Assembly (NCBI GenBank): GCA_017535945.1
Contig: JAFXTJ010000062.1
Span: 1 to 44,225 of the forward strand
Direction of reading: 5' to 3'
DNA: 44,225 nt
From: Lachnospiraceae bacterium
GTDB lineage: Bacteria; Bacillota; Clostridia; Lachnospirales; Lachnospiraceae
Part shown: piece after piece, positions 22,490 to 44,136 of the stretch
Layout of the letters: every line of letters begins with the position of its first letter
Numbering within the stretch: the stretch's first letter is position 1
Translations under genes and position numbers: made by a program
Notes under the pieces: model-generated
What the model was told of the DNA's origin: nothing
What the model saw: the letters and a program-made list of their open reading frames with translations, nothing else
Database searches by the model: none

Positions 22490-25400
22490 ATGGGCGTCAG
22501 ACGGATCTATGTGGAAAAGAAAAAGGAATTTGCCGGCAATGCGCGCGAGGTGCGCCATGAGCTCAGGCATTATCTGGGGATCAAAGGCGTGGACGAGGTA
22601 CGCAAGCTCATCCGCTATGATGTGGAAGGCGTGAGCGACGGGACTTTTGAGAAAGCCTGCCGGACCGTCTTTTCGGAGCCGCCGGTGGATGAGCTCTACC
22701 GCGAGGAGATCGAGGTGCCCGCGGGCGCCAGGATCTTCAGCGTGGAAGCCCTGCCGGGGCAGTTTGACCAGCGGGCGGATTCCGCGGAGCAGTGTGTGCG
22801 ATTTATTAAGGAAGACGAAGAGCCGGTGATCCGGACGGCGGTGACTTATATAATAACAGGCGATATTTCTGATGAGGAATTCGAACGGATCAAGGCGTAT
22901 GAGGTGAATCCGGTGGATTCGAGGGTCACGGATGAGCGCAAGCCCACGACTCTGTCCATGACCTATGACGAGCCGGCGGATGTACCGGTGCTTACGGGCT
23001 TCACGGCGGAATCCGATGAGGCGCTGCGGGCGCGTTACAACGGGCTGTCTCTCGCGATGACCCTGCAGGATTTCCTCTGGATCCGCGATCATTTCCGGGA
23101 TGAAGAGCATCGCGATCCCACGATGACGGAGATCCGGGTGCTGGATACCTACTGGTCGGATCATTGCCGGCATACCACATTCGGCACGCAGTTAAAGGAG
23201 ATCACCTGGGGAGAAGGCGACTACCGGACGCCGATCGAAGAGAGCTACCGGCATTACACTGCGGCCAGGGAAGAGATCTATCCCACTGAGGCGCGCAGGG
23301 AAGAGAAGCCGGTATGCCTCATGGACATCGCGCTCATGGGGATGAAGAAGCTTAAGGCTGAGGGACGCCTCACCGACATGGAGGAGTCCGAGGAGAACAA
23401 TGCCTGCACCATCGAGGTGCCGGTGGATATCACGGAGAACGGGCAGACCCGCACGGAGACCTGGCTGCTCTTCTTCAAGAATGAGACGCACAATCATCCG
23501 ACCGAGATCGAGCCTTTCGGCGGCGCGGCGACGTGCCTCGGCGGTGCGATCAGAGATCCCCTGTCCGGGCGCGGCTATGTCTATCAGGCGATGCGCGTCA
23601 CGGGAGCGGCGGATCCCACGAGGCCGGCTTCGGAGACCCTGCCCGGCAAGCTCTCCCAGAAGAGGCTGGTGCGCGGGGCCGCGGCGGGCTATTCCTCCTA
23701 CGGCAACCAGATCGGTCTGGCGACGGGCTTCGTCCGCGAGATCTATCATCCCGACTATGTGGCCAAGCGCATGGAGATCGGCGCGGTCATGGGCGCGGCA
23801 CCGAAGAGCGCGGTGCGGCGCGAATCCCCGAGACCCGGCGACATCGTGATCCTTTTAGGCGGCAGGACGGGCCGCGACGGGATCGGCGGTGCAACGGGAT
23901 CCTCCAAGGCACATGATACGAGCTCCCTCACGACCTGCGGGGCGGAGGTGCAGAAGGGTAATGCGCCGACGGAGCGCAAGCTCCAGCGTCTCTTCCGTCG
24001 GCCCGAGGTAGCGAGCCTGATCCGCAAGTGCAATGACTTCGGCGCGGGCGGTGTGTCCGTGGCCATCGGCGAGCTGGCACCCGGGCTGGATGTGAACCTG
24101 GATCTCGTCCCCAAGAAGTACGCGGGTCTGGACGGCACGGAGCTCGCGATCTCCGAATCCCAGGAGCGGATGGCAGTGGTCATCGATCCGGCGGACCGGC
24201 AGCAGTTCCTCGCCTATGCGGCCGAGGAGAATCTGGAGGCGACCGAAGTGGCGGTCGTGACGGAGAGCCCGCGCCTCGTCCTGAACTGGCGCGGAAAGAG
24301 GATTGTCGATATCTCCCGGGCATTCCTCGATACCAACGGCGCGCCGCAGGAGACGACGGTCACGGTCAAACTCCCGGATCGCGCGAAGAGCCCGCTCGGG
24401 ATCGTGAACATCAAGGCAGTCCGGGATGCCCTGGAGGCCGGCGATGAGAAGCGGGCGCTCCTGGCTGCGCTTTCCGATCTCAATACCGCCTCGCAGAAGG
24501 GACTGATCGAGATGTTCGACTCCTCGATCGGCGCGGAGTCCACATTGATGCCCTTCGGCGGGGTCTATCAGAAAACACCGACCCAGGCGATGGTGGCGGG
24601 GCTCCCGGTCTTAAGCGGCGAGAGCGATGCCGTTTCCATGATGGCCTACGGCTATGAGCCGGTGATCGCGAGCTTCAGCCCGTATCACGGTGCGGTCTAC
24701 GCGGTCACGCAGTCGATCGCGAGGATCGTGGCAAACGGCGGCGATCCGCGGAAGATCCATTTCACCTTCCAGGAATACTTCCGCCGGATGGTGGACAAGA
24801 CCGACTGGAGCGAACCTTTCACGGCGCTCCTCGGTGCCTTTGAGGCGCAGCTGCGCTACGGGATGGCATCGATCGGCGGCAAGGACAGCATGTCCGGCTC
24901 CTTTAACGAGATCCATGTCCCGCCGACGCTGGTGTCCTTCGCGGTGGATATGGCGAAGAGCGGCGAGATCCTGACACCGGAACTGAAGACGCCCGGGAAT
25001 CTCCTGGCGAGGGTGCGGATCCCGAAGGACGCGGACGGTCTGCCCGTATATGATAAAGTGCTGGAGACCTATGACGCCGTGATCCGCCTCATGCGTGCCG
25101 GCCGGATCGTCTCGGCCTGTGCGCCGGATCTCTCCGGTGTCGCGCCGATGCTCGCCATGATGGCCTTCGGAAACGGCCTGGGGGTTAAAATAACAGCCGA
25201 TATTAAACCGGAAGAGCTCTTTGCCGAAGGGATCGGCGATCTCGTCATGGAACTTGTGCCGGAGGGGGAGCAGGAACTGACGGCGATCCCCGGTGCGCAG
25301 ATCCTCGGCGAGGTCACCAGGGAAGCGGTCTTTGCATTCGGCGCGCAGGGCGCCGCGGTTCCCATGGCAGAGGCGCTGGAGGCCTGGACGGGGACGCTCG

Positions 25401-26299
25401 AGGGCGTCTTTAAGACACGGGCGGATGAGGACCGTTCGCCGGTGGAAACCGGCATCTACGAGGGCGGTCCGGTCTATGTGTGCAAAAACCGCGTGGCGAA
25501 GCCCACGGTCTTCATACCGGTCTTCCCCGGGACCAACTGCGAATATGATACGATGCGTGCCTTTGAACGGGCCGGTGCCGCGGTGAATACCTGTGTCTTC
25601 AGGAACCGCACCGCAGAGGACATCCGTGAGTCGGTCGCCGAATTCGAGCGGGGGATCGAGGAGGCACAGATCGTCATGTTCCCCGGCGGCTTCTCCGCGG
25701 GCGACGAGCCGGACGGCAGCGCGAAATTCTTCGCGACGGCTTTCCGGAATGCCCGGATCCGCCAGGCGATCGACAGGCTCCTGAATGAGAGGGACGGCCT
25801 CGTGCTCGGCATCTGCAACGGTTTCCAGGCCATCATCAAGCTGGGACTTGTGCCGGACGGCCGGATCATCGACGGGCAGACAGCGGACTCGGCGACCCTT
25901 ACCTTTAACACGATCGGACGCCACATCTCCAAGATGGCTTATCTTAAGGTCGTATCGAACAAGTCGCCGTGGCTTGCCCATGTGCGGACCGGCGGGGTCT
26001 ATGTGAATCCCGCGTCTCACGGAGAGGGACGGTTCGTGGCGCCGCGTGAGACGATCGAGGCGCTGTTCGCAAACGGACAGGTGGCGACGCAGTACTGCGA
26101 TCCAGAGGGCCGGATCACGATGGATGACGAGTGGAACATCAACGGCTCCTATCTGGCGATCGAAGGCATCACCTCGCCGGACGGGCGCTGCTACGGTAAG
26201 ATGTGCCACAGCGAGCGCATCGGCGACGGAGTCGCGAAGAATATCGTCGGTGAGCAGGATATGAGGATCTTTGAGTCGGGGGTGGAATACTTCTCATGA
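22490..26299 (+). CDS. purL: Phosphoribosylformylglycinamidine synthase, single-chain
   Basis: 1269 aa, the long form joining the synthetase and glutaminase parts. It converts FGAR, glutamine and ATP to FGAM, step four of purine synthesis. Seen: N-terminal VRRIYVEKK domain, DTYWSDHCRHTTF, the FFKNETHNHPTEI ATP/FGAR loop, FGAGGVSVAIGEL, and a C-terminal class I amidotransferase with FPGTNCEYD, FPGGFSAGDE and GICNGFQ (catalytic Cys1109). AGGAGG (22479-22484) is five bases from ATG 22490 but only two from ATG 22487, so 22490 is preferred. The carA start overlaps the stop (ATGA). Two copies of the AATAACAG motif lie inside, at 22852 and 25189. Confidence 0.97.
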   Translation: MGVRRIYVEKKKEFAGNAREVRHELRHYLGIKGVDEVRKLIRYDVEGVSDGTFEKACRTVFSEPPVDELYREEIEVPAGARIFSVEALPGQFDQRADSAEQCVRFIKEDEEPVIRTAVTYIITGDISDEEFERIKAYEVNPVDSRVTDERKPTTLSMTYDEPADVPVLTGFTAESDEALRARYNGLSLAMTLQDFLWIRDHFRDEEHRDPTMTEIRVLDTYWSDHCRHTTFGTQLKEITWGEGDYRTPIEESYRHYTAAREEIYPTEARREEKPVCLMDIALMGMKKLKAEGRLTDMEESEENNACTIEVPVDITENGQTRTETWLLFFKNETHNHPTEIEPFGGAATCLGGAIRDPLSGRGYVYQAMRVTGAADPTRPASETLPGKLSQKRLVRGAAAGYSSYGNQIGLATGFVREIYHPDYVAKRMEIGAVMGAAPKSAVRRESPRPGDIVILLGGRTGRDGIGGATGSSKAHDTSSLTTCGAEVQKGNAPTERKLQRLFRRPEVASLIRKCNDFGAGGVSVAIGELAPGLDVNLDLVPKKYAGLDGTELAISESQERMAVVIDPADRQQFLAYAAEENLEATEVAVVTESPRLVLNWRGKRIVDISRAFLDTNGAPQETTVTVKLPDRAKSPLGIVNIKAVRDALEAGDEKRALLAALSDLNTASQKGLIEMFDSSIGAESTLMPFGGVYQKTPTQAMVAGLPVLSGESDAVSMMAYGYEPVIASFSPYHGAVYAVTQSIARIVANGGDPRKIHFTFQEYFRRMVDKTDWSEPFTALLGAFEAQLRYGMASIGGKDSMSGSFNEIHVPPTLVSFAVDMAKSGEILTPELKTPGNLLARVRIPKDADGLPVYDKVLETYDAVIRLMRAGRIVSACAPDLSGVAPMLAMMAFGNGLGVKITADIKPEELFAEGIGDLVMELVPEGEQELTAIPGAQILGEVTREAVFAFGAQGAAVPMAEALEAWTGTLEGVFKTRADEDRSPVETGIYEGGPVYVCKNRVAKPTVFIPVFPGTNCEYDTMRAFERAGAAVNTCVFRNRTAEDIRESVAEFERGIEEAQIVMFPGGFSAGDEPDGSAKFFATAFRNARIRQAIDRLLNERDGLVLGICNGFQAIIKLGLVPDGRIIDGQTADSATLTFNTIGRHISKMAYLKVVSNKSPWLAHVRTGGVYVNPASHGEGRFVAPRETIEALFANGQVATQYCDPEGRITMDDEWNINGSYLAIEGITSPDGRCYGKMCHSERIGDGVAKNIVGEQDMRIFESGVEYFS
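22852..22867 (+). repeat. Dispersed AT-rich motif, copy in purL (AATAACAGGCGATATT)
   Basis: Exact match to the consensus AATAACAGNNGATATT. It is read in the gene as ATA-ACA-GGC-GAT-ATT after another ATA codon, unusual beside the GC-ending codons around it. Confidence 0.65.
25189..25204 (+). repeat. Dispersed AT-rich motif, second copy in purL (AATAACAGCCGATATT)
   Basis: Exact consensus match, read as ATA-ACA-GCC-GAT-ATT in the PurL frame, flanked by AAA on both sides. Confidence 0.65.
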
Positions 26300-27456
26300 A
26301 CGCATATCTGATCCTGGAAGACGGGACGGTCTTTACCGGCCGGTCCGTCGGAGCCAGAAAAGAGGTCATCAGCGAGATCGTCTTCAATACCGGGATGACC
26401 GGATACACGGAGGCTTTTACGGATCCCTCCTATGCCGGGCAGGCCCTGTGCATGACCTGGCCGCTGATCGGCAATTACGGCGTGTGCATCGATGACATGG
26501 AGAGCGACCGGCCCTGGCTGGACGGCGTGATCCTGCGCGAACTGTGCACACAGCCCTCCAATTTCCGCTGTGATATGAGTCTCCAGGAATTTCTCGTCAA
26601 ATACGACGTGCCCGGGATCGAGGGGATCGATACCAGGAAGCTGGTGCGGATCCTCAGGGAGAAGGGCACCATGAACGGGATGATCACCACGGTGGAACCG
26701 ACGGAGCAGACGAACCCGCAGCTGAGAGACCGGATCGCCGCCTACCGGGTACAGGGGGTGGTGGACCGGGTGACCTGCAAAAAGAGCTATACGGTCCGTC
26801 CGGGCAGCCATGGCAGCGAGCATGCGGGGGCCAAAGGCGTTGACCACAAGAGTCAAGGCAGTTCTCTGCTTCCCGGTACGGGATTGCGTGTGGCGCTCCT
26901 GGATTTCGGAGTAAAGCGCGGGATCGTCCGCGGACTTGCTTCCAGAGGCCTTGAAGTTACGGTATTTCCGGCGCATACACCCGCGGAAGAACTGATATCC
27001 GGCGGATTTGACGGGATCATGCTTTCCAACGGCCCCGGAGATCCTAAGGAAAATACGGAAATTATATCGGAAATTAAGAAAATATACGCTTCCGATGTGC
27101 CGACCTTTGCCATCTGTCTGGGACATCAGCTCATGGCGCTGGCGACGGGCTCGGATACGAAGCGGATGAAGTACGGCCACCGCGGCGCGAATCATCCGGT
27201 AAAGGATCTGAAGACGGGGAGAGTCTACATCTCCTCGCAGAACCACGGCTATATGGTGGACACGGCGACCGTTCCGGACGGCGTGGCCGCGGAAGCCTTT
27301 GTCAATGTCAACGACGGCACCAATGAGGGGCTGGATTACAGCGGAAAGGAACTTTTCACCGTGCAGTTCCATCCGGAGGCCTCCCCCGGCCCGCATGACA
27401 GCGGGGTGCTGTTCGACCGTTTCATAGAGAGCATGTTAAGAACAAAAGGCAGGTAA
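26296..27456 (+). CDS. carA: Carbamoyl-phosphate synthase small (glutaminase) subunit
   Basis: 386 aa, slightly longer than usual. It hydrolyses glutamine and passes ammonia to CarB. An N-terminal CarA domain (YLILEDGTVFTG, GMTGYTE, QALCMTWPLIGNYG) is followed by a class I amidotransferase with FAICLGHQ (Cys274) and FHPEAS (His359, Glu361). A linker near residues 167-190 is richer in Gly/Ser/His than usual. ATG overlaps the purL stop, and carB starts five bases after the stop, so the three are one operon. A degenerate copy of the AT-rich motif lies at 27060-27075. Confidence 0.97.
   Translation: MNAYLILEDGTVFTGRSVGARKEVISEIVFNTGMTGYTEAFTDPSYAGQALCMTWPLIGNYGVCIDDMESDRPWLDGVILRELCTQPSNFRCDMSLQEFLVKYDVPGIEGIDTRKLVRILREKGTMNGMITTVEPTEQTNPQLRDRIAAYRVQGVVDRVTCKKSYTVRPGSHGSEHAGAKGVDHKSQGSSLLPGTGLRVALLDFGVKRGIVRGLASRGLEVTVFPAHTPAEELISGGFDGIMLSNGPGDPKENTEIISEIKKIYASDVPTFAICLGHQLMALATGSDTKRMKYGHRGANHPVKDLKTGRVYISSQNHGYMVDTATVPDGVAAEAFVNVNDGTNEGLDYSGKELFTVQFHPEASPGPHDSGVLFDRFIESMLRTKGR
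27060..27075 (+). repeat. Degenerate copy of the AT-rich motif in carA
   Basis: AATTATATCGGAAATT matches 10 of 14 fixed consensus positions, inside an AT-rich island (27048-27090) of the otherwise GC-rich carA gene. Weak alone; noted because neighbouring genes carry better copies. Confidence 0.3.
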
Positions 27457-27461
27457 CTCCA

Positions 27462-30400
27462 ATGCCCAAGGATCAAAGCATCAAAAAAGTACTGGTCATC
27501 GGCTCCGGCCCGATCGTCATCGGACAGGCGGCGGAATTTGACTACGCGGGGACCCAGGCGTGCCGCTCCCTCAAGGAGGAAGGCATCGAGGTCGTGCTCG
27601 TCAATTCCAATCCGGCCACGATCATGACGGACCGGGACATCGCGGATGAGGTTTACATCGAACCGCTCACGAAGCGGGTTCTGGAGCAGATCATCGAGAA
27701 GGAAAAGCCCGATTCCGTGCTTCCCACACTGGGCGGACAGGCGGGCTTAAACCTCGGGATGGAACTCGCGGAGAGCGGATTCCTCGAGAAGCATCATGTG
27801 CGGCTGCTCGGGACCACGGCGGAGACGATCCGCAAGGCCGAGGACAGACAGTGCTTCAAGGATACGATGGAAAAGATCGGCGAGCCCTGCGCGCCCTCCC
27901 TCGTCGTGACGAGTGTGGACGAAGGCCGGCAGTTCGCCGAGAAGATCGGATACCCGGTGGTGCTGCGCCCTGCCTATACGCTGGGCGGCTCCGGCGGCGG
28001 CATCGCCTATGACGCCGGTCAGCTGACGGATATCCTGAGCAACGGCCTGCGCCTCTCCCGCGTCGGCGAAGTGCTGGTGGAGCGCTGCATCGCGGGCTGG
28101 AAGGAGATCGAGTATGAGGTCCTGCGCGACGGCGCGGGGAACCGGATCACCGTCTGTAATATGGAGAATCTGGATCCCGTCGGTGTTCATACCGGCGACA
28201 GCATCGTCGTGGCACCCTCCCAGACGCTGGGCGACAGGGAGCATCAGATGCTGCGATCCTCGGCGCTCTCCATCATCGATGAGCTGGGGATCACCGGTGG
28301 CTGCAATGTGCAGTTCGCCCTGCATCCCGATTCCTTTGAATACTGTGTGATCGAAGTCAATCCGCGTGTCTCACGCTCCTCGGCACTGGCCTCCAAGGCG
28401 ACCGGTTACCCGATCGCCCGGGTCGCGGCCAAGATCGCGCTCGGCTATACGCTGGACGAGATCCCGAATGCGATCACCGGCAAGACGATGGCGGATTTCG
28501 AGCCGGCGCTCGATTACTGCGTCGTGAAATTCCCGAGACTTCCTTTTGATAAGTTCCTCACGGCCAAGCGGACCCTCACCACCCAGATGAAGGCGACCGG
28601 CGAGGTGATGAGCATCTGCACCAATTTCGAAGGTGCGCTCATGAAGGCGATCCGTTCCCTGGAGCAGCATGTGGATTCCCTGCTGTCCTATGACTTCTCG
28701 GAGCTGGCGGATGATGAACTCAAGGAACGCCTGTATCTGGTGGATGACATGCGCATCTGGGTCATCGCGGAGGCGCTGCGGCGCGGCTTCACGATGCGCC
28801 GGATCCATGAGATCACCATGGTGGATGTCTGGTTCATCGACAAGCTGCGCAATCTCGTGGAGACGGAGAAAAGCCTGAAGGAAGCGGGAAAATCCCTGGA
28901 TGCGGGGCTCCTGCTCAAAGCCAAGCAGCTGGAATTCCCGGACACGGTGATCAGCAGGCTCACGGGACTCCCGGAGGACCGGATCAGAGCGCTGCGTTAC
29001 GGCAGCGGGATCGAGGCGGCCTACAAGCTGGTCGACACCTGCGCGGCGGAGTTCGCCGCCGAGACGCCGTATTATTACTCGGTCTACGGGGACAGCAGCG
29101 AGGAAAACGAGGCGGCGGAACGTTTGGTAACAGGTGTTACTGAAAAAAGAGAGTATAAAATATCAAGTGATATCAATCAGCCGGATTCGATAACAGATGA
29201 TATTGATAAAACAACAAATATTAAATCAGGAAAAAATAAACGCAAAAAGATCCTGATCCTGGGCTCCGGACCGATCCGCATCGGGCAGGGGATCGAATTT
29301 GACTACTGCTCGGTCCATGCGACCTGGGCCTTTGCCAAGGAAGGCTATGAGACGATCATCATCAACAACAATCCGGAGACGGTCTCCACGGATTTCGATA
29401 TCGCGGACAAGCTCTATTTCGAGCCCCTGACGCCGGAGGACGTGGAGAATGTCGTGCGTCTGGAGAAGCCGGACGGCGCCGTGGTCCAGTTCGGCGGGCA
29501 GACGGCCATCAAACTCACGCAGGATCTGATGCGCATGGGCGTGAAGATCTACGGGACCGATGCCGCGGATGTGGATGCGGCGGAGGACCGCGAGCTCTTC
29601 GATGAGATCCTCGGCGAGACCGGGATCCCGAGAGCGGAGGGCGCCACGGTCTTCACGGCGGAGGAGGCTGTCGCGACGGCCAACCGCCTCGGCTACCCGG
29701 TGCTGATCCGTCCCTCCTATGTGCTGGGCGGCCAGGGGATGCAGATTGCGATCAACGATGAGGAGATCGAGGAGTTCATGGCGATCATCAACCGCTATGC
29801 GCAGGATCATCCGATCCTCATCGACAAATATCTGCAGGGCACGGAGACGGAGGTCGACGCGGTCTGCGACGGCGAAAACATCGTGATCCCCGGCATCATG
29901 GAGCATATCGAGCGCTCCGGCATCCATTCCGGGGATTCCATCTCGGTCTATCCGGCCCAGACATTATCCGAAGCGGCGCGGGATAAGATCGAACAGTATA
30001 CGGCGAGGCTCGCCAGGGCGCTGCATGTGGTGGGACTCATCAATGTGCAGTTCATCGCGGTCGGAGACGAGGTCTATATCATCGAAGCCAATCCGCGTTC
30101 CTCCCGGACCGTGCCATATATCAGCAAGGTGACGGGCATCCCGATCGTGGATCTGGCGGTGCAGGTGATGCTCGGGAAGAAGCTCACGGATCTGGGCTAT
30201 ACGCCGGGCCTGCAGCCGGAATCCGGGCATATCGCCGTCAAGATGCCGGTGTTCTCCTTTGAGAAGATCCGCGGAGCGGAGATCAGCCTCGGCCCCGAGA
30301 TGAAATCCACGGGCGAATGCCTGGGCATCAGCGACAACTTCAACGAAGCGCTGTACAAGGCGTTCCTGGGCGCCGGCTACCATCTGCCGAAGCACAAGCA

Positions 30401-30788
30401 GATGATCATCACCGTGCGCGACGCGGACAAGGGCGAGGTGATCGAGATCGCCAGACGCTATGAGAAGCTGGGCTATATCATCTATGCCACCCGTTCCACG
30501 GCGCAGATCCTGAATGAGAACGGTGTGAAGGCGCGCAAGATCAACAAGATCCATCAGGAGTCCCCGACGGTCATCGACCTGATCCTGGGCCACCGGATCG
30601 ATCTCGTCATCGATACGCCCACACAGGGGCGGGACAAGACCAGGGACGGCTTCCTCATCCGCCGCACCGCCATCGAGACGGGCGTCAATGTGCTCACGGC
30701 GCTGGATACGGCGAGAGCCCTCGTGGCGAGTCTGGAGAACGGCGAGCGGGAGGAGGATCTGACCCTCGTGGATGCCGCGAAACTGTAA
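27462..30788 (+). CDS. carB: Carbamoyl-phosphate synthase large subunit
   Basis: 1108 aa, about 35 longer than the usual ~1070. It makes carbamoyl phosphate for pyrimidine and arginine synthesis from bicarbonate, ammonia and two ATP. Two homologous ATP-grasp halves are clear: VLVIGSGPIVIGQAAEFDYAG at the start of the first and ILILGSGPIRIGQGIEFDYC at the start of the second, each with its NPRVSRSSALASKATGYP / NPRSSRTVPYISKVTGIP block. A C-terminal MGS-like regulatory domain holds DLVIDTPTQG. The extra length is an AT-rich, polar linker (residues about 555-592) between the halves, packed with copies of the AATAACAG motif. queH follows 17 bases later. Confidence 0.97.
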   Translation: MPKDQSIKKVLVIGSGPIVIGQAAEFDYAGTQACRSLKEEGIEVVLVNSNPATIMTDRDIADEVYIEPLTKRVLEQIIEKEKPDSVLPTLGGQAGLNLGMELAESGFLEKHHVRLLGTTAETIRKAEDRQCFKDTMEKIGEPCAPSLVVTSVDEGRQFAEKIGYPVVLRPAYTLGGSGGGIAYDAGQLTDILSNGLRLSRVGEVLVERCIAGWKEIEYEVLRDGAGNRITVCNMENLDPVGVHTGDSIVVAPSQTLGDREHQMLRSSALSIIDELGITGGCNVQFALHPDSFEYCVIEVNPRVSRSSALASKATGYPIARVAAKIALGYTLDEIPNAITGKTMADFEPALDYCVVKFPRLPFDKFLTAKRTLTTQMKATGEVMSICTNFEGALMKAIRSLEQHVDSLLSYDFSELADDELKERLYLVDDMRIWVIAEALRRGFTMRRIHEITMVDVWFIDKLRNLVETEKSLKEAGKSLDAGLLLKAKQLEFPDTVISRLTGLPEDRIRALRYGSGIEAAYKLVDTCAAEFAAETPYYYSVYGDSSEENEAAERLVTGVTEKREYKISSDINQPDSITDDIDKTTNIKSGKNKRKKILILGSGPIRIGQGIEFDYCSVHATWAFAKEGYETIIINNNPETVSTDFDIADKLYFEPLTPEDVENVVRLEKPDGAVVQFGGQTAIKLTQDLMRMGVKIYGTDAADVDAAEDRELFDEILGETGIPRAEGATVFTAEEAVATANRLGYPVLIRPSYVLGGQGMQIAINDEEIEEFMAIINRYAQDHPILIDKYLQGTETEVDAVCDGENIVIPGIMEHIERSGIHSGDSISVYPAQTLSEAARDKIEQYTARLARALHVVGLINVQFIAVGDEVYIIEANPRSSRTVPYISKVTGIPIVDLAVQVMLGKKLTDLGYTPGLQPESGHIAVKMPVFSFEKIRGAEISLGPEMKSTGECLGISDNFNEALYKAFLGAGYHLPKHKQMIITVRDADKGEVIEIARRYEKLGYIIYATRSTAQILNENGVKARKINKIHQESPTVIDLILGHRIDLVIDTPTQGRDKTRDGFLIRRTAIETGVNVLTALDTARALVASLENGEREEDLTLVDAAKL
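29126..29141 (+). repeat. AT-rich motif copy 1 in the CarB linker, palindrome GTAACAGGTGTTAC
   Basis: GTAACA/TGTTAC arms around GG form a perfect inverted repeat. It matches the left half of the dispersed motif and is read in frame as Val-Thr-Gly-Val-Thr. Confidence 0.55.
29159..29174 (-). repeat. AT-rich motif copy 2 in the CarB linker
   Basis: On the minus strand GATATCACTTGATATT matches 11 of the 14 fixed consensus positions, and the plus strand also matches 11 of 14, because the site is nearly palindromic. It lies 33 bases from the copy before and 30 from the copy after, about three helical turns each. Confidence 0.5.
29189..29204 (+). repeat. AT-rich motif copy 3 in the CarB linker (GATAACAGATGATATT)
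   Basis: Matches 13 of 14 fixed positions of AATAACAGNNGATATT. Read as ATA-ACA-GAT-GAT-ATT in the carB frame. Confidence 0.6.
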
Positions 30789-30805
30789 CGGATCCGGCCG
30801 CGGTC

Positions 30806-31507: not shown

Positions 31508-31511
31508 TATT
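31496..31511 (+). repeat. Dispersed AT-rich motif at the queH stop/argS upstream region (AATAACAGTTGATATT)
   Basis: Exact consensus match; includes the queH TGA (31505-31507) and extends into the intergenic region, about 30 bases upstream of the argS -35 box. Flanking AATA/TATATT extends the symmetry. Here the reading frame differs from that at the other genic copies, so no common peptide explains it. Confidence 0.65.
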
Positions 31512-36831: not shown

Positions 36832-36896
36832 GCGCGGAAGACCGGTTGAGAGACGTAACAGCCGTATGAACGGCGGATCATGAAAGGAGCAGCAGC

Positions 36897-38063
36897 ATGA
36901 ACACAGCGGAAGAAGCATTAAAGCGTCACGAAGAATGGCAGGGGAAGCTGACGGTCACCTCCAAGGCGGCGGTGAAGAGCGCGGAGGATCTGGCAATCGC
37001 CTATACGCCCGGTGTGGCGGAGCCCTGCAAACTGATCGCGGAAGATCCGAAGCTGGCCTATAAGTATACGATCAAATCCAATACGATCGCCGTCGTCTCC
37101 GACGGGAGCGCGGTCCTCGGACTCGGCAACATCGGCCCCTACGCGGCGATGCCCGTCATGGAGGGCAAGGCGGTGCTCTTCAAGGAATTCGGCGGTGTCA
37201 ACGCCGTGCCGATCTGTCTTGACACGCAGGATACCGAAGAGATCATCAAAGCGGTGAAGCAGCTGGCCCCCGGTTTCGGCGGCTTCAATCTGGAGGACAT
37301 CAGCGCTCCCAGATGCTTCGAGATCGAGGAGCGGCTGAAGAAGGAGCTGAATGTGCCCGTCTTCCACGACGATCAGCACGGCACGGCCATCATCGTGCTG
37401 GCCGGACTGACGAACGCGCTGCGGCTCTTAAAAAGAGAGAAGAAGGACACCCGCGTGGTGGTCTCCGGCGCCGGCGCAGCCGGTGTGGCGATCTCAAAGC
37501 TCATGATGCGCGCAGGAATAACAGATGTTATTTTATGCGACCGGAAAGGTGTGATCTGCAGGGAGACCGCCGGCAGCAACAAGACAAAGCTCGAGATGAT
37601 CGAGATCACCAATCCGCGCAGCGTACAGGGGAGTCTGGCGGATGCTTTGAAGGATGCGGATGTCTTCGTGGGCGTCTCCGCGCCCGGCATCGTGACCCGG
37701 GAGATGATCGCCTCCATGCGGCCGGATCCCATCATCTTCGCCATGTCCAACCCCGTGCCGGAGATCATGCCGGACGAGGCCAAGGCAGGCGGCGCCAGGA
37801 TCATCGGCACCGGCCGGAGTGATTTCCCCAACCAGGTCAACAATGTCCTGGTCTTCCCGGGCATCTTCAAGGGCGCACTGGAAGGACATGCCAGACAGAT
37901 CACGGAGGAGATGAAGCTCGCGGCGGCGGATGCCATCGCCTCTCTCGTGGACGACGCGACGCTCGATGAAGATCACATCCTGCCCGCAGCCTTTGATCCG
38001 CGCGTTGCCGATGCGGTCTCCGCCGCTGTCCGGGCGCATATCACGGAGGATAACAGGATCTGA
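36897..38063 (+). CDS. NAD(P)-dependent malic enzyme
   Basis: 388 aa, the short bacterial malic enzyme that decarboxylates malate to pyruvate. Malic N-domain: LAIAYTPGVAEPCK with the catalytic Tyr36, GLGNIGPYAAMPVMEGKAVLFK split across the metal and lysine regions, then FHDDQHGTAI with the metal-binding Asp pair. The NAD domain has VVSGAGAAGVAI. FAMSNPVPEI is the substrate loop. RBS AAAGGAGC precedes ATG 36897. A hairpin terminator follows, overlapping the rho promoter. The gene holds a perfectly palindromic copy of the AT-rich motif at 37517. Cofactor preference cannot be read with confidence. Confidence 0.94.
   Translation: MNTAEEALKRHEEWQGKLTVTSKAAVKSAEDLAIAYTPGVAEPCKLIAEDPKLAYKYTIKSNTIAVVSDGSAVLGLGNIGPYAAMPVMEGKAVLFKEFGGVNAVPICLDTQDTEEIIKAVKQLAPGFGGFNLEDISAPRCFEIEERLKKELNVPVFHDDQHGTAIIVLAGLTNALRLLKREKKDTRVVVSGAGAAGVAISKLMMRAGITDVILCDRKGVICRETAGSNKTKLEMIEITNPRSVQGSLADALKDADVFVGVSAPGIVTREMIASMRPDPIIFAMSNPVPEIMPDEAKAGGARIIGTGRSDFPNQVNNVLVFPGIFKGALEGHARQITEEMKLAAADAIASLVDDATLDEDHILPAAFDPRVADAVSAAVRAHITEDNRI
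37517..37532 (+). repeat. AT-rich motif in the malic enzyme gene, perfect palindrome AATAACAGATGTTATT
   Basis: AATAACA and TGTTATT are exact inverted arms around GA, the most symmetric copy in the window. Read as ATA-ACA-GAT-GTT-ATT-TTA, codons rare in this gene. Confidence 0.65.
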
Positions 38064-38094
38064 CGAAAAAAGCCTGTTGCTTTTCGTGTTTTCT
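38064..38094 (+). terminator. Terminator after the malic enzyme gene
   Basis: ACGAAAA pairs with TTTTCGT, and AGC with GCT inside, with two bulged A; GTTTTCTT follows. The right arm overlaps the -35 box of the rho promoter. Confidence 0.6.
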
Positions 38095-38105
38095 TGCGCT
38101 ATAAT
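38077..38105 (+). promoter_or_regulatory. Promoter of rho
   Basis: TTGCTT (38077-38082), 17-base spacer, TATAAT (38100-38105). It leaves a leader of roughly 145 bases before the rho start, with no ORF or strong hairpin that I can see. Rho genes are often self-regulated through such leaders. Confidence 0.7.
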
Positions 38106-38255
38106 ACGACCGTCTAATTCTTACGGCAGTAAGGGAGCCGGTCGAACATTTACCCAGAAGAGACGAGAACAGTACAGTACAGAGATACAGGTTAACAGAA
38201 ACAGATCCATCAGGACAGAACAGGCATATCCGGGCATTATGCAGAGAGGAAGTGT

Positions 38256-39698
38256 ATGACTAATCTGAAAGAGAAACTCGAGTCCCTCCCGTTGACACAG
38301 CTCAAGGAGATGGCGAAAGCATGCGGCTTGAAAGGCGTATCGGTGATGAAGAAGGCCGATGTGATCGAGCTGCTGCTGGCGGAGGAGGCAAAGAGAGACA
38401 CGGCGGCCGCCAAGCCGCAGGAGAGCGCGGCACCCGCGCCCGCGCCGGCACAGAAAAGCGCGGCGCCGGAGCGGCAGGCAGCTGCCGCTGAGACGGAACC
38501 GGCATCCGCCGAGAAGAACCAGGAGGGCAGCTCCGCCGGCGAGGTGGCAGCGGAGAAGAGCGATCTGGACAGCGGGATGGAGGCCAACGGGATCCTCGAG
38601 GTCATGCCTGACGGCTACGGATTCATCCGCAGCGCGAACTATCTGCCCGGCGAGAACGATGTCTATGTGGCACCCAGCCAGATCCGCCGGTTCAATCTCA
38701 AGACGGGGGATATCCTCGTCGGCAATACCAGAGTCAAGACACAGGGTGAGAAGTTCAGCGCCCTGCTCTATGTGAAATCGGTCAACGGCTATCATCCCGA
38801 AGCGGCTTCCAAGAGACGCAACTTCGAGGATATGACGCCGATCTTCCCGGAGCAGAAGCTGGTGCTGGAGCGCCCCGGCTCCTCGATCGCCATGCGCATC
38901 ATGGATCTCATCTGCCCCGTCGGCAAGGGACAGCGCGGCATGATCGTCTCGCCGCCCAAGGCCGGCAAGACGACTCTGTTAAAGGATGTGGCCAAATCCG
39001 TTAAGGCGAACAATCCCGATATCCACATGATCATCCTCCTGATCGACGAACGTCCGGAGGAAGTCACGGATATCAAGGAGACGATCGAGGGTCCCAATGT
39101 AGAAGTGATCTATTCCACCTTTGACGAGACGCCCGAGCATCACCGCCGCGTCTCGGAGATGGTGATCGAACGCGCCAAGCGTCTGGTCGAGCACGGACGG
39201 GACGTGATGATCCTGCTGGATTCCATCACGCGTCTCACCCGCGCCTACAACCTGGTCGTGACACCCTCCGGCCGCACACTTTCCGGCGGCCTGGATCCCG
39301 CGGCACTGCACATGCCCAAGCGCTTCTTCGGCGCGGCGCGCAACATGCGCGAGGGCGGGAGCCTCACGATCCTCGCGACGGCGCTCATCGAGACGGGCTC
39401 CAAGATGGACGATGTCGTCTACGAGGAATTCAAGGGCACCGGCAATATGGAGATGATCCTCGACCGCAAGCTGCAGGAACGCCGTGTCTTCCCTGCCATC
39501 AACATCCCCAAGTCCGGAACCCGCAGAGAAGATCTGCTGCTGTCCAGACAGGAGATGGAGGCGGTGGCCATCATGCGCCGCGGTTACAACGGCATGAAGG
39601 GTGACGAAGCGGTGGATCAGATCATCAATCTCTTCTCAAGGACTAGGACAAATCCCGAATTCGTCAACATGATCCTGAAGCAGATGGTGAGATTTTAA
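38256..39698 (+). CDS. rho: Transcription termination factor Rho
   Basis: 480 aa, longer than the ~420 of E. coli Rho because of an insertion. Residues 3-45 are the Rho N domain ([21 protein letters not shown]). Residues about 48-108 are an Ala/Pro/Glu/Lys-rich disordered insertion, common in Clostridia and Actinobacteria. The RNA-binding cold-shock-like domain follows ([15 protein letters not shown]). The ATPase domain has Walker A PPKAGKTT (residues 233-240), [12 protein letters not shown], Walker [11 protein letters not shown] and the R/Q loops. Rho is a hexameric RNA translocase that ends transcription. It follows its own promoter; GAGAGGAAG lies before ATG 38256. Confidence 0.97.
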
Positions 39699-39729
39699 GC
39701 CTGTTTTTCCACCTGTTCTACATTTGCCG

Positions 39730-39758
39730 TTGACATGCGATTTGGCAAGTGGTAGAAT
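39730..39758 (+). promoter_or_regulatory. Promoter of tRNA-Thr
   Basis: TTGACA (39730-39735), 17-base spacer, TAGAAT (39753-39758), about 38 bases before the tRNA. It may also serve the SCP2-domain gene. Confidence 0.75.
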
Positions 39759-39796
39759 ATCCGCGTTGACCCGGCGTGATTATCTGACCGGATCAG

Positions 39797-39869
39797 GCTG
39801 GCGTAGCACAGTCGGTAGTGCGTCGCATTGGTAGTGCGGAGGTCACGGGTCCGATTCCCGTCGCCAGCT
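39797..39869 (+). tRNA. tRNA-Thr(GGU)
   Basis: Acceptor GCTGGCG/CGCCAGC, anticodon arm TCGCA-TTGGTAG-TGCGG with anticodon GGT, T arm ACGGG-TCCGATT-CCCGT. CCA is not encoded. A run of T follows the acceptor stem directly. Confidence 0.93.
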
Positions 39870-39935
39870 TTTTCCACAGCCACAGAACCGTATAAGGAAG
39901 CATGAAGAGTTTACAGATGCAGAAAGGGGACAATC

Positions 39936-40430
39936 ATGACCTATGAAGAAATCGTTGCCAAAGTAAAAAAGCATTTCCAGGGCTTCAAGCCTGCGAGCGC
40001 GGAGGACCGCCTTGCTGTACAGGTTGATATCACCGGTGAGGGCGAGGGTGCATTCTACATCGAGATCGCGGACGGCAGGATCGCCGTGGAGCCTTACGAG
40101 TATTATGAGCATGATATTAAGGTGACGGCTCCCGCGGACGCGCTGCTTGAGGTGGTGGACGGCAAGACGGATCTGATCAATGCCAATCTCACCGGCAAGC
40201 TCCATGCGGAGGGTGACCTCGGCAAGGCCGAGATCCTCGGCAATCTTGTGAAGAGTGCCGCGAAGAAGGCATCGGCTGCGAAGAAGCCCGCTGCCAAGAA
40301 GACAACGGCCGCGAAGAAGCCCGCCGCGAAGAAGACGACGGCTGCGAAGAAGCCTGCCGCCAAGAAGCCTGCGGCCAAGAAGACAACGGCTGCGAAGAAG
40401 CCCGCTGCAAAGAAGACTGCGGCGAAATAA
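39936..40430 (+). CDS. SCP2 sterol-carrier-like domain fused to a histone-H1-like Lys/Ala/Pro tail
   Basis: 164 aa. Residues 1-105 resemble an SCP2 lipid-carrier domain (GEGAFYIEIADGRIAVEP, then DIKVTAPADALLEVVDGKTD and the glycine-rich GKLHAEGDLGKAEILGNLVK end), a fold that binds hydrophobic ligands. Residues 106-164 are repeats of AAKKPAAKKTT, a basic tail like that of bacterial H1-like nucleoid proteins. The tail would bind DNA or RNA, or another acidic surface such as phospholipid. AGAAAGGGGAC precedes ATG 39936. It stands between tRNA-Thr and metF, both on the same strand. The cellular role is unknown; I know of no characterised protein with this pairing. Confidence 0.85.
   Translation: MTYEEIVAKVKKHFQGFKPASAEDRLAVQVDITGEGEGAFYIEIADGRIAVEPYEYYEHDIKVTAPADALLEVVDGKTDLINANLTGKLHAEGDLGKAEILGNLVKSAAKKASAAKKPAAKKTTAAKKPAAKKTTAAKKPAAKKPAAKKTTAAKKPAAKKTAAK
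40270..40427 (+). repeat. Tandem 33-bp-type repeats encoding AAKKPAAKKTT
   Basis: Imperfect tandem units (33 bases, one unit shortened or rearranged) form the basic tail of the SCP2-domain protein. Prone to length change between strains. Confidence 0.8.
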
Positions 40431-40461
40431 GGACCGCTTATTGCGGATGCGAACTGTGACG

Positions 40462-40486
40462 ATTCCCACGGCTTTGCCGTGGGAAT
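40462..40486 (+). terminator. Perfect 11-bp hairpin between the SCP2 gene and metF
   Basis: ATTCCCACGGC pairs exactly with GCCGTGGGAAT around TTT. There is no U tract after it (TGCTATACC), so it may be a Rho-assisted terminator, an mRNA 3'-end stabiliser or a leader element of metF rather than a classical terminator. Confidence 0.5.
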
Positions 40487-40511
40487 TGCTATACCTGCGG
40501 GGGATAACGGG

Positions 40512-41384
40512 ATGAAAGTATCGGAGATTCTGAAGAACAATGAAGTGACTCTTTCGTTTGAAGTCTTTCCGCCCAAGACGGATGCCTCCTTTGCGGATGT
40601 GGCACGGGCGGCCGGGGAGATCGCGGCGATGAAGCCGCATTTCATGAGTGTGACCTACGGCGCCGGCGGCAATACGGCGGCCAATACGGCCCAGCTGGCG
40701 GAGCAGCTGCAGAAAGAGCATGACGTGACCGTGCTGGCGCATCTGACCTGCGTCGCGGCGTCCAGAGACGATGTCCGCCGGATGCTTACGGATTACAGGA
40801 GCCGCGGGATCGAGAACATCATGGCCCTGCGCGGGGATATCCCCAAGGACGGCAAACGGAGTGAGGATTATCTCTACGCCGTGGACCTGATCCGTGATAT
40901 CCGCGAGATCGCGGGACCGGACACCTTCTGCATCGGCGGCGCCTGCTATCCCGAGGGACACGTGGAGTGCGAGCGCCAGTCCGAGGATATCGCCCACTTA
41001 AAGGAAAAGGTCGAGGCGGGCTGCTCCTTCCTCACGACCCAGATGTTCTTTGATAACAATACGCTCTATAACTTCCTCTACCGGATCCGCGAGGCCGGGA
41101 TCGAGGTCCCCGTGCTGCCCGGCATCATGCCGATCACCAACAAAAAGCAGGTGGCGCGGAGCGTGGCGCTCTCCGGAGCGACGGTCCCGCAGCGCTTCCG
41201 CACGATGGTGGACCGCTACGGCGACGATCCCCGTAAGATGCAGCAGGCGGGTGTGATCTACGCCGCGGAGCAGATCATCGATCTCATCGCCAACGGCGTG
41301 AACCATATCCATGTGTATTCCATGAACAAGCCCGAGATCGTTGAGGGGATCCTGAACAGCTTCTCCGCCATTCTCGGGAGGTGA
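40512..41384 (+). CDS. metF: Methylenetetrahydrofolate reductase
   Basis: 290 aa, usual for bacterial MetF, a flavoprotein reducing 5,10-methylene- to 5-methyl-tetrahydrofolate for methionine synthesis. Landmarks: TLSFEVFPPKTD, MSVTYGAGGN, HLTCVAASRDD, ENIMALRGDIPKDG, then the TTQMFFDNNTLYNFLYRIREAG split near residue 180, and PVLPGIMPI. ATG 40512 is preferred; an in-frame start at 40479 would place the N-terminus inside the upstream hairpin. The stop overlaps or abuts the K+ channel gene, whose ATG lies 12 bases later, so the two are likely co-transcribed. Confidence 0.95.
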   Translation: MKVSEILKNNEVTLSFEVFPPKTDASFADVARAAGEIAAMKPHFMSVTYGAGGNTAANTAQLAEQLQKEHDVTVLAHLTCVAASRDDVRRMLTDYRSRGIENIMALRGDIPKDGKRSEDYLYAVDLIRDIREIAGPDTFCIGGACYPEGHVECERQSEDIAHLKEKVEAGCSFLTTQMFFDNNTLYNFLYRIREAGIEVPVLPGIMPITNKKQVARSVALSGATVPQRFRTMVDRYGDDPRKMQQAGVIYAAEQIIDLIANGVNHIHVYSMNKPEIVEGILNSFSAILGR

Positions 41385-41395
41385 CGGGACATTTT

Positions 41396-42625
41396 ATGAA
41401 GGGATCCGCCGGTACAGGGAAACAGCTCTTTTGCAAGATCCGTGCACAGATCTTTGATCTGGTTTCCGTTAAGGTCATCAATGACCGCGCCAACCAGATC
41501 TATGATATTGTGAGCACTCTTGTTCTTATCCTGAACCTGGCGGTCAGTTTTGCACTCACCTTTGATACCGTTGCTCAGGCGCACGGCGGTCTGCTGCGCG
41601 GCATCGAATCGGTGACGGTCTTTCTTTTCGCCGTGGACTATGTGCTGCGGCTTCTGACCGCGGGACTGCTGTATGAGGAGCAGAAGAGCGAGATCAAGTC
41701 CCTCCTGCTGTACATCTTTTCCATCGCGGGGCTTATCGATCTGCTGTCGTTCCTGCCCTATTATCTGCCGATCTTCTTCCCGGCGGGGACGGCCGCCTTC
41801 CGGATGTTCCGTGTGGCCAGGATCTTCCGCCTCTTCCGGATCAACGCCTATTATGACTCCCTCAATGTCATCACGGAGGTCATCGTCTCCAAGAAGCAGC
41901 AGCTGCTCTCCTCGGTTTTCATCCTCGCGGTGCTCATGACGGCCTCCAGCCTGTGCATGTATTCGCTCGAGCACGAAGCGCAGCCCGAGGTCTTCACCAA
42001 CGCCTTTTCCGGGATCTGGTGGTCGGTATCCACACTGCTGACCGTCGGCTACGGCGATATCTATCCCGTGACCTATGTGGGCAAGCTCTTCGGGATCTGT
42101 ATCACCTTTCTGGGAGTCCTGGTAGTGGCGGTCCCCACCGGTATCATCAGCGCCGGCTTCGTGGAACAGTACACACGGCTGAAGCGGATCGGCGAGATCG
42201 CCCAGGAAGAGGACGTCAAATTTGTTAAATTGAAATTGAATAAAGACGATGCGTGGTGCAGCAAAGCCATCTCCGACCTACGGCTCCCGCACGGAATCCT
42301 GATCGCGGGTGTGCAGAGGAACGGAGAGATCCTCATCCCGCGCGGAGATCTGGTCCTGCAGATGACCGATCTGGTCATTCTTGCTGCGGAGGCGGTACAG
42401 GATGATCAGCCGGTCAACATTAAGGAGGTCCTCCTGAAAGCGAATCATCCCTGGAACGGATGCGAGATCCGCAACCTGGATATCTCCAGACAGAGTTTTA
42501 TCGTATTGATCAAGAGAGGGAACGATTCGATCCTCCCGAAGGGCAGTCTGATGCTCCGGGAGGGAGACAGGGTGTTTGTCTATTCCGTGGGTGCCGCGGC
42601 ACGCCACGATATGTTCGAATTCTGA
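41396..42625 (+). CDS. Six-transmembrane voltage-gated-type K+ channel with C-terminal RCK/TrkA-C domain
   Basis: 409 aa. S1-S4 occupy residues about 35-160; S4 is RMFRVARIFRLFRI, with arginines every third residue as in voltage sensors. S5, pore and S6 follow, with the selectivity filter TVGYGD (residues 216-221) and an S6 rich in Gly/Val (GICITFLGVLVVAVPTG). After a charged linker, residues about 285-405 form TrkA-C-like ligand-binding lobes (LPHGILIAGVQRNGEILIPR; GSLMLREGDRVFVYS), one apparently repeated. It conducts K+ across the cell membrane, gated by voltage and perhaps a cytoplasmic ligand. ATG 41396 is taken; GTG 41381 overlapping the metF stop is the alternative. Confidence 0.9.
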   Translation: MKGSAGTGKQLFCKIRAQIFDLVSVKVINDRANQIYDIVSTLVLILNLAVSFALTFDTVAQAHGGLLRGIESVTVFLFAVDYVLRLLTAGLLYEEQKSEIKSLLLYIFSIAGLIDLLSFLPYYLPIFFPAGTAAFRMFRVARIFRLFRINAYYDSLNVITEVIVSKKQQLLSSVFILAVLMTASSLCMYSLEHEAQPEVFTNAFSGIWWSVSTLLTVGYGDIYPVTYVGKLFGICITFLGVLVVAVPTGIISAGFVEQYTRLKRIGEIAQEEDVKFVKLKLNKDDAWCSKAISDLRLPHGILIAGVQRNGEILIPRGDLVLQMTDLVILAAEAVQDDQPVNIKEVLLKANHPWNGCEIRNLDISRQSFIVLIKRGNDSILPKGSLMLREGDRVFVYSVGAAARHDMFEF

Positions 42626-42649
42626 GGAATGCCGGTTCCGGCGTGAAAG

Positions 42650-43513
42650 TCAGCTCTTTTTCTTCTCCATGATGGCATCGATGGAAGCCATGCAGGCGGC
42701 ACGGAAGCCGTTTTTTTCGAGCGCCTGCACGCCGCAGATCGTGGTGCCTGCGGGTGAGCAGACCCGGTCCTTGAGGACGCCGGGGTGTTCCCCGGTCTCC
42801 AGAGCGAGTTTTGCGGAGCCCAGTACGGACTGGGCGATGAGACGGTAGGCGTCGGCGCGCGGGATGCCGTATTTGACGGCCGCGTCCCCGTAGGCCTCGA
42901 GCAGCAGATCCACAAAAGCGGGAGAGCAGCCGGTGAGCGCTCCGCCGATCCCCATGAGGGAAGAGGGGAGCTCGTGAACGAGCCCAAGGGCAGAGAGCAG
43001 GAAGAGAAGTGCTTCCCGCTCTTCCGGTGTCAATGAGTTTTCCTGCTCCACGAGGAAGACGCCTTCCCCGACCATGGCGGGCGTATTGGGCATGATGCAT
43101 TGCACGCGCACGGTATCGATGAGGGCTTCGGGCTCTTCGGCGTCCTCTTCACTGTCCGTCTCCGCGCGTAGCGAGACGGAGAGGGAGGCGAGGAGGTAAC
43201 TGAATCTGTTGTAGTCCCAGCCGGCGGCGACGGAAACCAGCGCCTTGCCGGAGAGCGCTTCGCCGATCTCCCCGAGAACCTGCTCGATCTGATAGGGCTT
43301 GCATGCGATGAAGATCATGTCGGAAGCTTCTGCCAGCGCAACGGGGCTGTCGGCCGGCGTGAAGCCGATCCGCTTCGCGTTACTTTCCAGCTTGTCCCTG
43401 TGCGGCGCATAGGCCAGAATATCCGTGCCGGGTATGTTGCAGGTGTTGATGAAGCCCTCGCAGAGCGCCTGGGCCATATTTCCCATGCCGATAAATCCGA
43501 TCTTCATCTTCAT
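42650..43513 (-). CDS. proC: Pyrroline-5-carboxylate reductase
   Basis: 287 aa. ProC makes proline from pyrroline-5-carboxylate with NAD(P)H. The Rossmann start is KIGFIGMGNMAQAL (from residue 4), then IFIACKPYQIEQVL, VQCIMPNTPAMVGEG, and a C-terminal dimer domain with GIGGALTGCSPAFVDLLLEAY and the SPAGTTICGVQALE end motif. The middle carries an acidic insertion (DSEEDAEEPEA, near residue 120) not usual in the family. AGGAGG lies seven bases before ATG 43513. It follows the nucleotidase gene by 11 bases on the same strand, so they are co-transcribed. Confidence 0.95.
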   Translation of the reverse strand: MKMKIGFIGMGNMAQALCEGFINTCNIPGTDILAYAPHRDKLESNAKRIGFTPADSPVALAEASDMIFIACKPYQIEQVLGEIGEALSGKALVSVAAGWDYNRFSYLLASLSVSLRAETDSEEDAEEPEALIDTVRVQCIMPNTPAMVGEGVFLVEQENSLTPEEREALLFLLSALGLVHELPSSLMGIGGALTGCSPAFVDLLLEAYGDAAVKYGIPRADAYRLIAQSVLGSAKLALETGEHPGVLKDRVCSPAGTTICGVQALEKNGFRAACMASIDAIMEKKKS

Positions 43514-43524
43514 TTGGTGGCCTC

Positions 43525-44136
43525 CTATGATTCCTGTCTGCCGATCAGTTCGTCCAGTGTATTGCCGTAGGAGGGCAGGAAATCAATGAGGAAATCACGC
43601 ACCTCCGGCAGCTCCCGGCTCATTTTCTCGATGGATTCTCTGGTGGTCAGCTCTGCCGTGCGGAATTCCAGATTGCCGGCTTCCTTCTCCTCCATGCACT
43701 TGATCAGTGCGGAAAACTTGTCGGCTGCTTTGACCAGTTTCCTGAGATACGCCTCGTCCGCGTCCGTTTCTTCATAAGAAAAGATCTCGGCATAGACCGG
43801 ACGCAGATCCTCGGGCAGCATGCACAAAAGCTGATCCTCCGCCACGGCCTCCACCTCCTTGTAGGCCTTGCGGAGACTTGTGGTGCGGTACTTCACCGGG
43901 GTTGGCATATCACCTGTTATTATTTCAGATGCGTCATGATACAGACCGATCAGAGCGGCCTTTTCCGCGTTGAGATTTTTACCATAACGCTTGTTACCGA
44001 TCGTGCAGAGCGCATGGGCGATCATCGCCACTTCCAAAGAATGCTCGCTCAGGTTTTCCTCCCTGGCGTTGCGCATGAGCGCCCAGCGGTCGATGTATTT
44101 CATACGGGATAAAGTTGCAAAAAAGGAATAGCTCAT
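43525..44136 (-). CDS. HD-domain 5'-deoxynucleotidase, YfbR-like
   Basis: 203 aa. An HD-fold phosphohydrolase that resembles E. coli YfbR, which removes phosphate from deoxynucleoside 5'-monophosphates. Seen: NLSEHSLEVAMIAHAL with His32, LYHDASEIITGDMPTPVKY with His67-Asp68, and a later Asp in VKAADKFSALIKC. TGAGG six bases before ATG 44136 decides the start; an in-frame GTG at 44148 overlaps the upstream gene's stop. A 15-of-16 variant of the AT-rich motif overlies the EIITGD codons. Substrate range is by family analogy. Confidence 0.88.
   Translation of the reverse strand: MSYSFFATLSRMKYIDRWALMRNAREENLSEHSLEVAMIAHALCTIGNKRYGKNLNAEKAALIGLYHDASEIITGDMPTPVKYRTTSLRKAYKEVEAVAEDQLLCMLPEDLRPVYAEIFSYEETDADEAYLRKLVKAADKFSALIKCMEEKEAGNLEFRTAELTTRESIEKMSRELPEVRDFLIDFLPSYGNTLDELIGRQES
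43906..43921 (-). repeat. AT-rich motif copy in the yfbR-like gene (AATAACAGGTGATATG)
   Basis: Minus-strand match at 13 of 14 fixed positions. Read as ATA-ATA-ACA-GGT-GAT-ATG in that gene, again with rare ATA codons. Confidence 0.6.

Follow-up and report, generated by a model that had tools for sequence, protein, structure and literature searches.

The window analysed here, all 44,225 nucleotides of it, runs from position 1 to 44,225 of contig JAFXTJ010000062.1 in the assembly of a Lachnospiraceae bacterium (GCA_017535945.1, referred to as G000; 2,649,334 bases in 144 contigs, 81.9% complete), and the element under study is a short palindromic DNA site that recurs within and between its core genes. 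In its best form, the site reads AATAWCRNNYGWTATT and is flanked on each side by approximately four A/T-rich bases. The right half of the window (22487..44148) is colinear with relatives and forms part of a site-rich domain that contains purL, carA, carB, queH, argS, putP, a gene matching DUF5722, malic enzyme, rho, metF, a K+ channel gene, proC and a 5′-deoxynucleotidase gene. The protein matching DUF5722 identifies the same locus in five Lachnospiraceae bins, RUI489, RGIG1458, RUI086, RUI315 and RUI060 (L114-L118). Further left, in the accessory block, a single 2970-aa open frame (13122-22034) has a strong A-over-T skew and holds no site with one mismatch or fewer; an earlier note on this DNA had seen no good copy between 3017 and 22852, a stretch that includes the accessory block, and for that block this holds.

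Two copies lie on the plus strand within purL. The first, AATAACAGGCGATATT (22852..22867), is found at the same position with at most one mismatch in all three aligned relatives, and the second, AATAACAGCCGATATT (25189..25204), is kept in two of four; the third relative has two mismatches there and another copy 60 bp away, and the fourth has four mismatches. Within carB, an A/T-rich, low-complexity stretch of approximately 40 aa (29120-29240) holds an array of sites, and here the alignment is gapped against some relatives and the number of sites differs. The array begins with a weak plus-strand member, GGTAACAGGTGTTACT (29126..29141), which was read directly from the sequence, has more than one mismatch and is matched by no copy with one mismatch or fewer in three relatives. 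It is followed 33 bp later by AATATCAAGTGATATC (29159..29174), a one-mismatch copy under a refined pattern described below that is kept in two of three relatives, and, after another 30 bp, by GATAACAGATGATATT on the plus strand (29189..29204), for which G033 has a copy at the same place, G061 a copy 12 bp away and G062 none. A further plus-strand copy, AATAACAGTTGATATT (31496..31511), spans the queH stop codon and, in three of four relatives, has a counterpart that coincides with the aligned position or lies no more than 11 bp from it. The copy in the malic-enzyme-like gene, AATAACAGATGTTATT (37517..37532), occurs at the same position in both aligned relatives, and the minus-strand copy in the 5′-deoxynucleotidase gene, AATAACAGGTGATATG (43906..43921), does so with at most one mismatch in two of three. 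Outside the conserved block, a possible copy, AATAACAGGCATTATT (3001..3016), has one mismatch to the refined pattern and is without an aligned relative.

The exact copies that the earlier note had placed at 22852, 25189 and 31496, and its one-mismatch copies at 29189 and, on the minus strand, 43906, are all present at those places. The copy at 37517, described there as a perfect palindrome, has fully complementary 7-base arms around a centre, GA, that is not complementary. Its list of weaker copies survives in part: 29159 is a one-mismatch site, 3001 is a possible one without an aligned relative and 29126 is poor. Three others are not sites. Positions 33427 and 34171 have one mismatch or fewer in none of five aligned relatives each, and 27060 (AATTATATCGGAAATT) was judged by its letters only.

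A refined consensus, AATAACRNNYGATATT, was read off the genome-wide matches and gives 64 matches with at most one mismatch on the two strands of G000, vs one control match. A sequence logo built from 61 sites in the portion of G000 that was fetched and 27 from G033, from which the variant contigs C58 and C3 (overlapping C101 and C116) were excluded, shows the palindrome AATAWCRNNYGWTATT with its two central bases free. A preference for A/T extends approximately four bases on either side, and nothing is shared beyond approximately 24 bp. The word proposed in the earlier note needed revision in its letters, with position 8 free, position 7 R, position 10 Y, and positions 5 and 12 W. In G000, the contig pairs C101/C58 (L061/L064) and C116/C3 (L069/L068) carry the same genes at 81-82% identity, and a second strain or species has therefore contributed variants to the bin, which bears on copy counts.

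The excess over chance that had been proposed is confirmed. With near-palindromes scored on both strands, the window holds 13 matches with three or fewer mismatches, vs a shuffle mean of 1.18, and none of 100 dinucleotide shuffles reaches 13. The original 16-mer occurs exactly five times in the 2.65 Mb of G000, three of them inside the 44-kb window, and with up to two mismatches there are 77 matches on both strands, vs seven for the reversed pattern. Both orientations are present on contigs with a single sign of GC skew, so the site has no polarity.

The copies are grouped by region. Contigs C15 (40-56 kb), C101, C5 and C116 of G000 lie side by side with the window on the 91,896-bp contig C138 of RUI489 (G062), which carries 21 sites. 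Of these, 11 fall within 48-64 kb, where addA, addB, the purH region and their neighbours are located. The right half of the window is one flank of this 92-kb domain, and the peak at addAB-purH lies outside the window. A second group of sites occurs on C114/C96, matching contig C42 of G062, and a smaller one on C130, matching C25 of G062. In G000, three tandem copies in 15-bp steps (with one, one and two mismatches) occupy the gap that separates the genes for IMP cyclohydrolase and AICAR formyltransferase (L065:3940-3985).

One account of these copies would be chance together with protein conservation, in which a shared peptide, I-T-x-D-I, happens to spell the word. Ten of the 15 genic sites on G062:C138 do fall in one reading phase, often encoding I-T-x-D-I, with three in phase 0 and two in phase 1, and seven of the nine listed window copies also share one phase. 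Codon-preserving shuffles refute this account, as none of 300 reaches the observed number in either of two gene sets: the 13 genes at 22.4-44.2 kb hold six copies with at most one mismatch to the refined pattern (shuffle mean 0.01), and 12 reading frames of contig C101 hold eight (mean 0.03). Twelve reading frames in the accessory half, at 0-22 kb, hold a single copy (mean 0.48), a number reached in 145 of 300 shuffles. Furthermore, the other phases, the stop-codon copy at 31496 and the intergenic copies show that the site is not a peptide effect, as the earlier note had argued for the peptide as a whole explanation. The probability left to this account is next to nil, and the data point to strong selection on the DNA sequence within core genes that is not accounted for by the proteins.

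Segments around each G000 site were aligned with those of relatives at 52-82% identity. For ten sites on C101, in addA, addB, valS, purN and other genes, the site is kept in 17 of 27 comparisons, and in kept sites the free bases vary and the W positions swap A for T. The expectation that relatives would keep the motif at synonymous positions is borne out for most copies, and some are lost. These alignments also bear on the proposal of a small dispersed or selfish palindromic element that has inserted itself in many places. The carB copies, which lie in an A/T-rich stretch gapped against some relatives and differ in number, behave as such an element might, and gaps are also seen at C15 and a few other places. 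Elsewhere, relatives differ mostly by substitutions: most copies stay where they are and diverge through point changes, the logo ends approximately four A/T bases out, and the flanks past that point are unshared. A dispersed element is therefore very unlikely.

Another proposal in the earlier note was an operator of a global transcription regulator. The site is a quasi-palindrome of operator size, and two genes, one glycoside-hydrolase-like (C15) and one larB-like (C130), both named by eye, have a triplet of copies immediately upstream. An operator would be expected mostly in promoters, whereas at least 15 of the 21 copies on G062:C138, the best relative contig, are inside genes. In addition, the genes with sites share no common pathway, the copies are grouped by region, and the C15 triplet is kept in G033 and in neither G062 nor G063. 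The fit is poor and an operator is improbable, if less so than a dispersed element.

Among 79 genomes of the genus, which includes Butyrivibrio, strict copies (the palindrome without mismatch) are concentrated in a clade of six: G000 (23), G033 (17), G343 (19), G344 (22), G346 (18) and G349 (14), with no control matches. Other genomes with at least five strict copies are G316 (10 vs 2 control matches), G327 (7 vs 1), G336 (7 vs 1), G028 (6 vs 2), G315 (5 vs 0), G350 (5 vs 2) and G351 (5 vs 3). With a looser pattern, the genomes of four of the bins sharing the locus give 90, 78, 85 and 52 matches vs 2, 4, 3 and 2 for controls; a Butyrivibrio record (L119) gives 34 vs 21 and a more distant one (L120) 7 vs 2.

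In Butyrivibrio, the site is associated with chromids. B. proteoclasticus B316 has four replicons, with sizes of 3,554,804, 302,358, 361,399 and 186,325 (Table 1, PMC2914790). In the B316 genome (G315), copies with at most one mismatch are barely enriched overall (45 vs 37 control matches). The 302-kb chromid BPc2 nevertheless holds 21 of these 45, vs 3.1 expected by length and 4 for the control pattern, and the two megaplasmids hold three and one. GC skew on BPc2 flips at position 0 and at approximately 165 kb, and 16 of the 21 sites are found no further than 62 kb from position 0, where 8.6 are expected. For radii of 40 and 75 kb, the counts are 12 and 17 (5.6 and 10.4 expected); all three radii were picked after the data were seen. 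In other chromids, 13 of the 21 BPc2 sites have no aligned counterpart in the fetched DNA, and four of the other eight are retained by one or more chromids: 280898 (in three of four aligned), 287448 (two of two), 290576 (three of eight) and 279481 (one of four).

BPc2 encodes ParA, an adjacent 286-aa protein (the chromid ParB) and a Rep3-type initiator, and the 286-aa protein has matches in 34 of the 79 genomes. In the 15 genomes that combine a strong ParB match with strict sites among those listed, 23 of the 51 listed strict sites lie on the chromid-parB contig, vs 2.0 expected by length, and 11 of the 15 have at least one there. Five genomes with weak ParB matches were excluded from this count; three of their seven listed strict sites lie on that contig. 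Strict sites also occur above controls in G336 and G028 (7 vs 1 and 6 vs 2), and these genomes have no chromid ParB match. Within 20 windows of up to 20 kb around chromid parB, there are nine strict sites vs no control matches, and 33 copies with at most one mismatch vs eight. Three of 600 half-site permutations reach 33 copies in these windows, namely the site itself, a close variant and one unlike it. The unlike permutation probably catches an array upstream of parA, and the strict count is the cleaner measure.

Sites can co-exist on chromosome and chromid. Chromid-bearing G316 has four sites with at most one mismatch within 9 kb at addB-purH on a non-chromid contig, one of them in the same intergenic gap as the G000 tandem, and in G327 a single strict site is found next to valS, on a contig of 814 kb.

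The chromid windows share a backbone in the order MATE-HU-ParB-ParA-Rep. MATE, HU, the ParB-like protein and ParA are present in 20 of 20, and Rep in 19, the remaining one being cut by a contig end. This resembles the Butyrivibrio chromids already described: in the B. fibrisolvens chromid pINBov266, the GC-skew switch is where repA, parB and hbs are grouped (PMC6249431). Upstream of parA, in an A/T-rich context, the repeat TATAACATA occurs in two to nine copies in each of the 20 regions (BPc2, L199-L212, L214-L218), and is likely to be the centromere of the ParB-like protein; it shares the hexamer ATAACA with a half-site of AATAWCRNNYGWTATT. Between parA and rep, AAAAGGGAA repeats number 94 in the same 20 regions combined and are probable origin iterons.

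An orthologue of the chromid MATE protein (67-71% identity, vs 24-29% for other MATE proteins) is encoded at the domain peak in three clade genomes (L132:18148-19494; L095:12433-13767; L065:299-1630). Chromid ParB, Rep, DUF815 and HypA were not detected by tblastn (E 1e-8) in the 1,004,019 bases, overlaps included, that were fetched from the clade. In G001, which has a chromid with MATE, valS, addA, addB and the purine genes occur in the same order on another contig, with neither MATE nor a site with one mismatch or fewer in 80 kb. Taken together, these observations suggest, and do not prove, that chromid material entered the clade's chromosome. RUI315 carries, flanked by its K+ channel and proC genes, an HU gene with 82% identity to that of the chromid (L117:16536-16811), and no other HU matches were found in the fetched clade stretches.

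The co-occurrence of sites with chromid-parB contigs speaks for one candidate reader, the chromid's own partition protein, the ParA partner of approximately 180-320 aa with a conserved C-terminal domain, for which the site would be a dispersed secondary centromere; the clade would then have this protein on a chromid that the bins have lost, or in a form too diverged to be found. Bins of uncultured genomes can miss secondary replicons, the ATAACA hexamer is common to the parA-upstream array and the half-site, and the chromid neighbour gene MATE sits at the site peak in three clade genomes. Nevertheless, neither protein searches nor a profile built from 16 C-terminal domains detected chromid ParB in the six site-rich genomes (78-97% complete); the positive control, G315, was recovered at E 2.5e-39. 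The one weak match, in G346 (E 0.08), is MurG-like by eye. The kept sites, moreover, sit on core-gene contigs in which no such parAB was found, and the array that the chromid does have beside parA is built from another repeat. The chromid ParB has a ribbon-helix-helix look by eye; sequence searches of Pfam and PDB brought up nothing that clearly matches it, and no clear relative was found among plasmid records. This protein as the reader of the site is accordingly a minority possibility, and rather doubtful. A binder that the host chromosome encodes and that serves chromosome and chromid alike is more likely, because chromid ParB is undetectable in the site-rich clade; the co-existence of chromosomal and chromid sites is read in the same way.

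The element is real, acts at the DNA level, is under selection, is regional and is common to chromids and to a core-gene domain. The chromosome-organising site, the remaining option in the earlier note, is the best supported of the three by the regional clustering, the conservation of position within genes and the enrichment on chromids. With moderate confidence, these sequence patterns lead to the prediction that a dimeric protein recognises and binds AATAWCRNNYGWTATT, most likely to serve DNA segregation or the organisation of domains, here over part of the chromosome and, in other Butyrivibrio, on chromids. Such a protein would label a limited stretch of DNA and not individual promoters: in the window's clade the core-gene domain that peaks at addAB-purH, and in chromid-bearing Butyrivibrio mainly the chromid, more so its origin half. 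Many moderate sites over tens of kb could allow the protein to coat, bridge or position that stretch, as at parS or matS.

A more tentative extension, less probable than the predicted role itself, is that a single host protein reads the 16-bp word on both the chromid (mainly its origin half) and the addAB-purH domain, and thereby couples the folding or segregation of the two replicons. In the clade, where the chromid would be gone and MATE lies in the domain peak, the address would have spread to core genes, so that a centromere-like domain would have moved from chromid to chromosome.

Several observations weigh against a segregation or domain-organising site. The searches identified no binder. 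Sites are also lost: ten of the 27 C101 comparisons lose the site, the C101 copy at 12358 is kept in none of three, and three C5 sites (223, 1638 and 1678) have no counterpart with one mismatch or fewer in any aligned relative. Of the 79 genomes, 73 have ten or fewer strict copies (0-10), and 18 of these have none. The B316 chromosome is not enriched, with 20 copies of at most one mismatch in 3.55 Mb. It has a cluster of four weak sites at 3.14-3.18 Mb, which was predicted to be at addAB-purH; the 30 kb read there contained no gene of the clade domain and, by eye, uvrAB-, ftsX- and flagellar-type genes. Ten of the 20 chromid-parB windows hold one or no copy with at most one mismatch, and two of these hold none. 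On the chromosomal side, GC skew along G062:C138 has one sign with no flip, and, among the single-contig Lachnospiraceae records listed, the distance of addA from the start of the record, which is not a mapped origin, varies. No convincing dif was found on the site-rich contigs scanned and, given this and the single-sign skew of C138, no claim of an origin or terminus is made for the domain.

Few bacteria are known to have domain-marking sites. For the question of how Clostridia segregate a secondary chromosome and keep it in step with the main one, a site common to chromids and a core-gene domain offers a direct handle, as the word and its positions are known in several genomes and could be used to fish for the binder. 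No description of this site was found in the accessible portions of the literature on chromids, ribbon-helix-helix centromere proteins and matS/MatP in Firmicutes.

Among known systems, the RacA ram sites and Noc sites of Bacillus are regionally clustered and serve in DNA anchoring or division control. The present site resembles them in its clustering and differs in sequence, and G000 holds only one ParB-type match. Type Ib plasmid centromeres pair parA with a small centromere-binding protein (such as ParG or Omega), and those known form arrays beside parA. In Butyrivibrio chromids, too, parA and parB are paired and adjoin a repeat array, and AATAWCRNNYGWTATT is enriched on these chromids. That array, however, consists of TATAACATA, whereas AATAWCRNNYGWTATT is dispersed over tens of kb and also occurs outside chromids, and a cognate centromere-binding protein was found in none of the six site-rich genomes. 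With the chromids BPc2 and pINBov266 as described, the grouping of backbone genes is shared, and the available excerpts of those descriptions mention no dispersed site. Like the parS/ParB (Spo0J) system, the present site is a 16-bp palindrome that is clustered and would have a role in segregation. It differs in its letters from canonical parS (TGTTNCACGTGNAACA), which is found apart from it on contig C121 of G000, in one exact and two one-mismatch copies beside ParB; the present site is absent from C121, the contig of the single ParB found in G000. With matS/MatP it shares a general plan, in which one domain of the chromosome carries tens of copies of a short palindrome. The letters of matS, GTGACRNYGTCAC, are not matched, and only the C-R-n-Y-G type of centre is alike; arms, spacing and phylum differ, and the present site is also found on chromids. 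For scale, PMC3330122 gives 23 copies of matS in 800 kb of the E. coli Ter macrodomain. If the proposed role is right, AATAWCRNNYGWTATT would act in the manner of parS or matS while belonging, by sequence, to neither.

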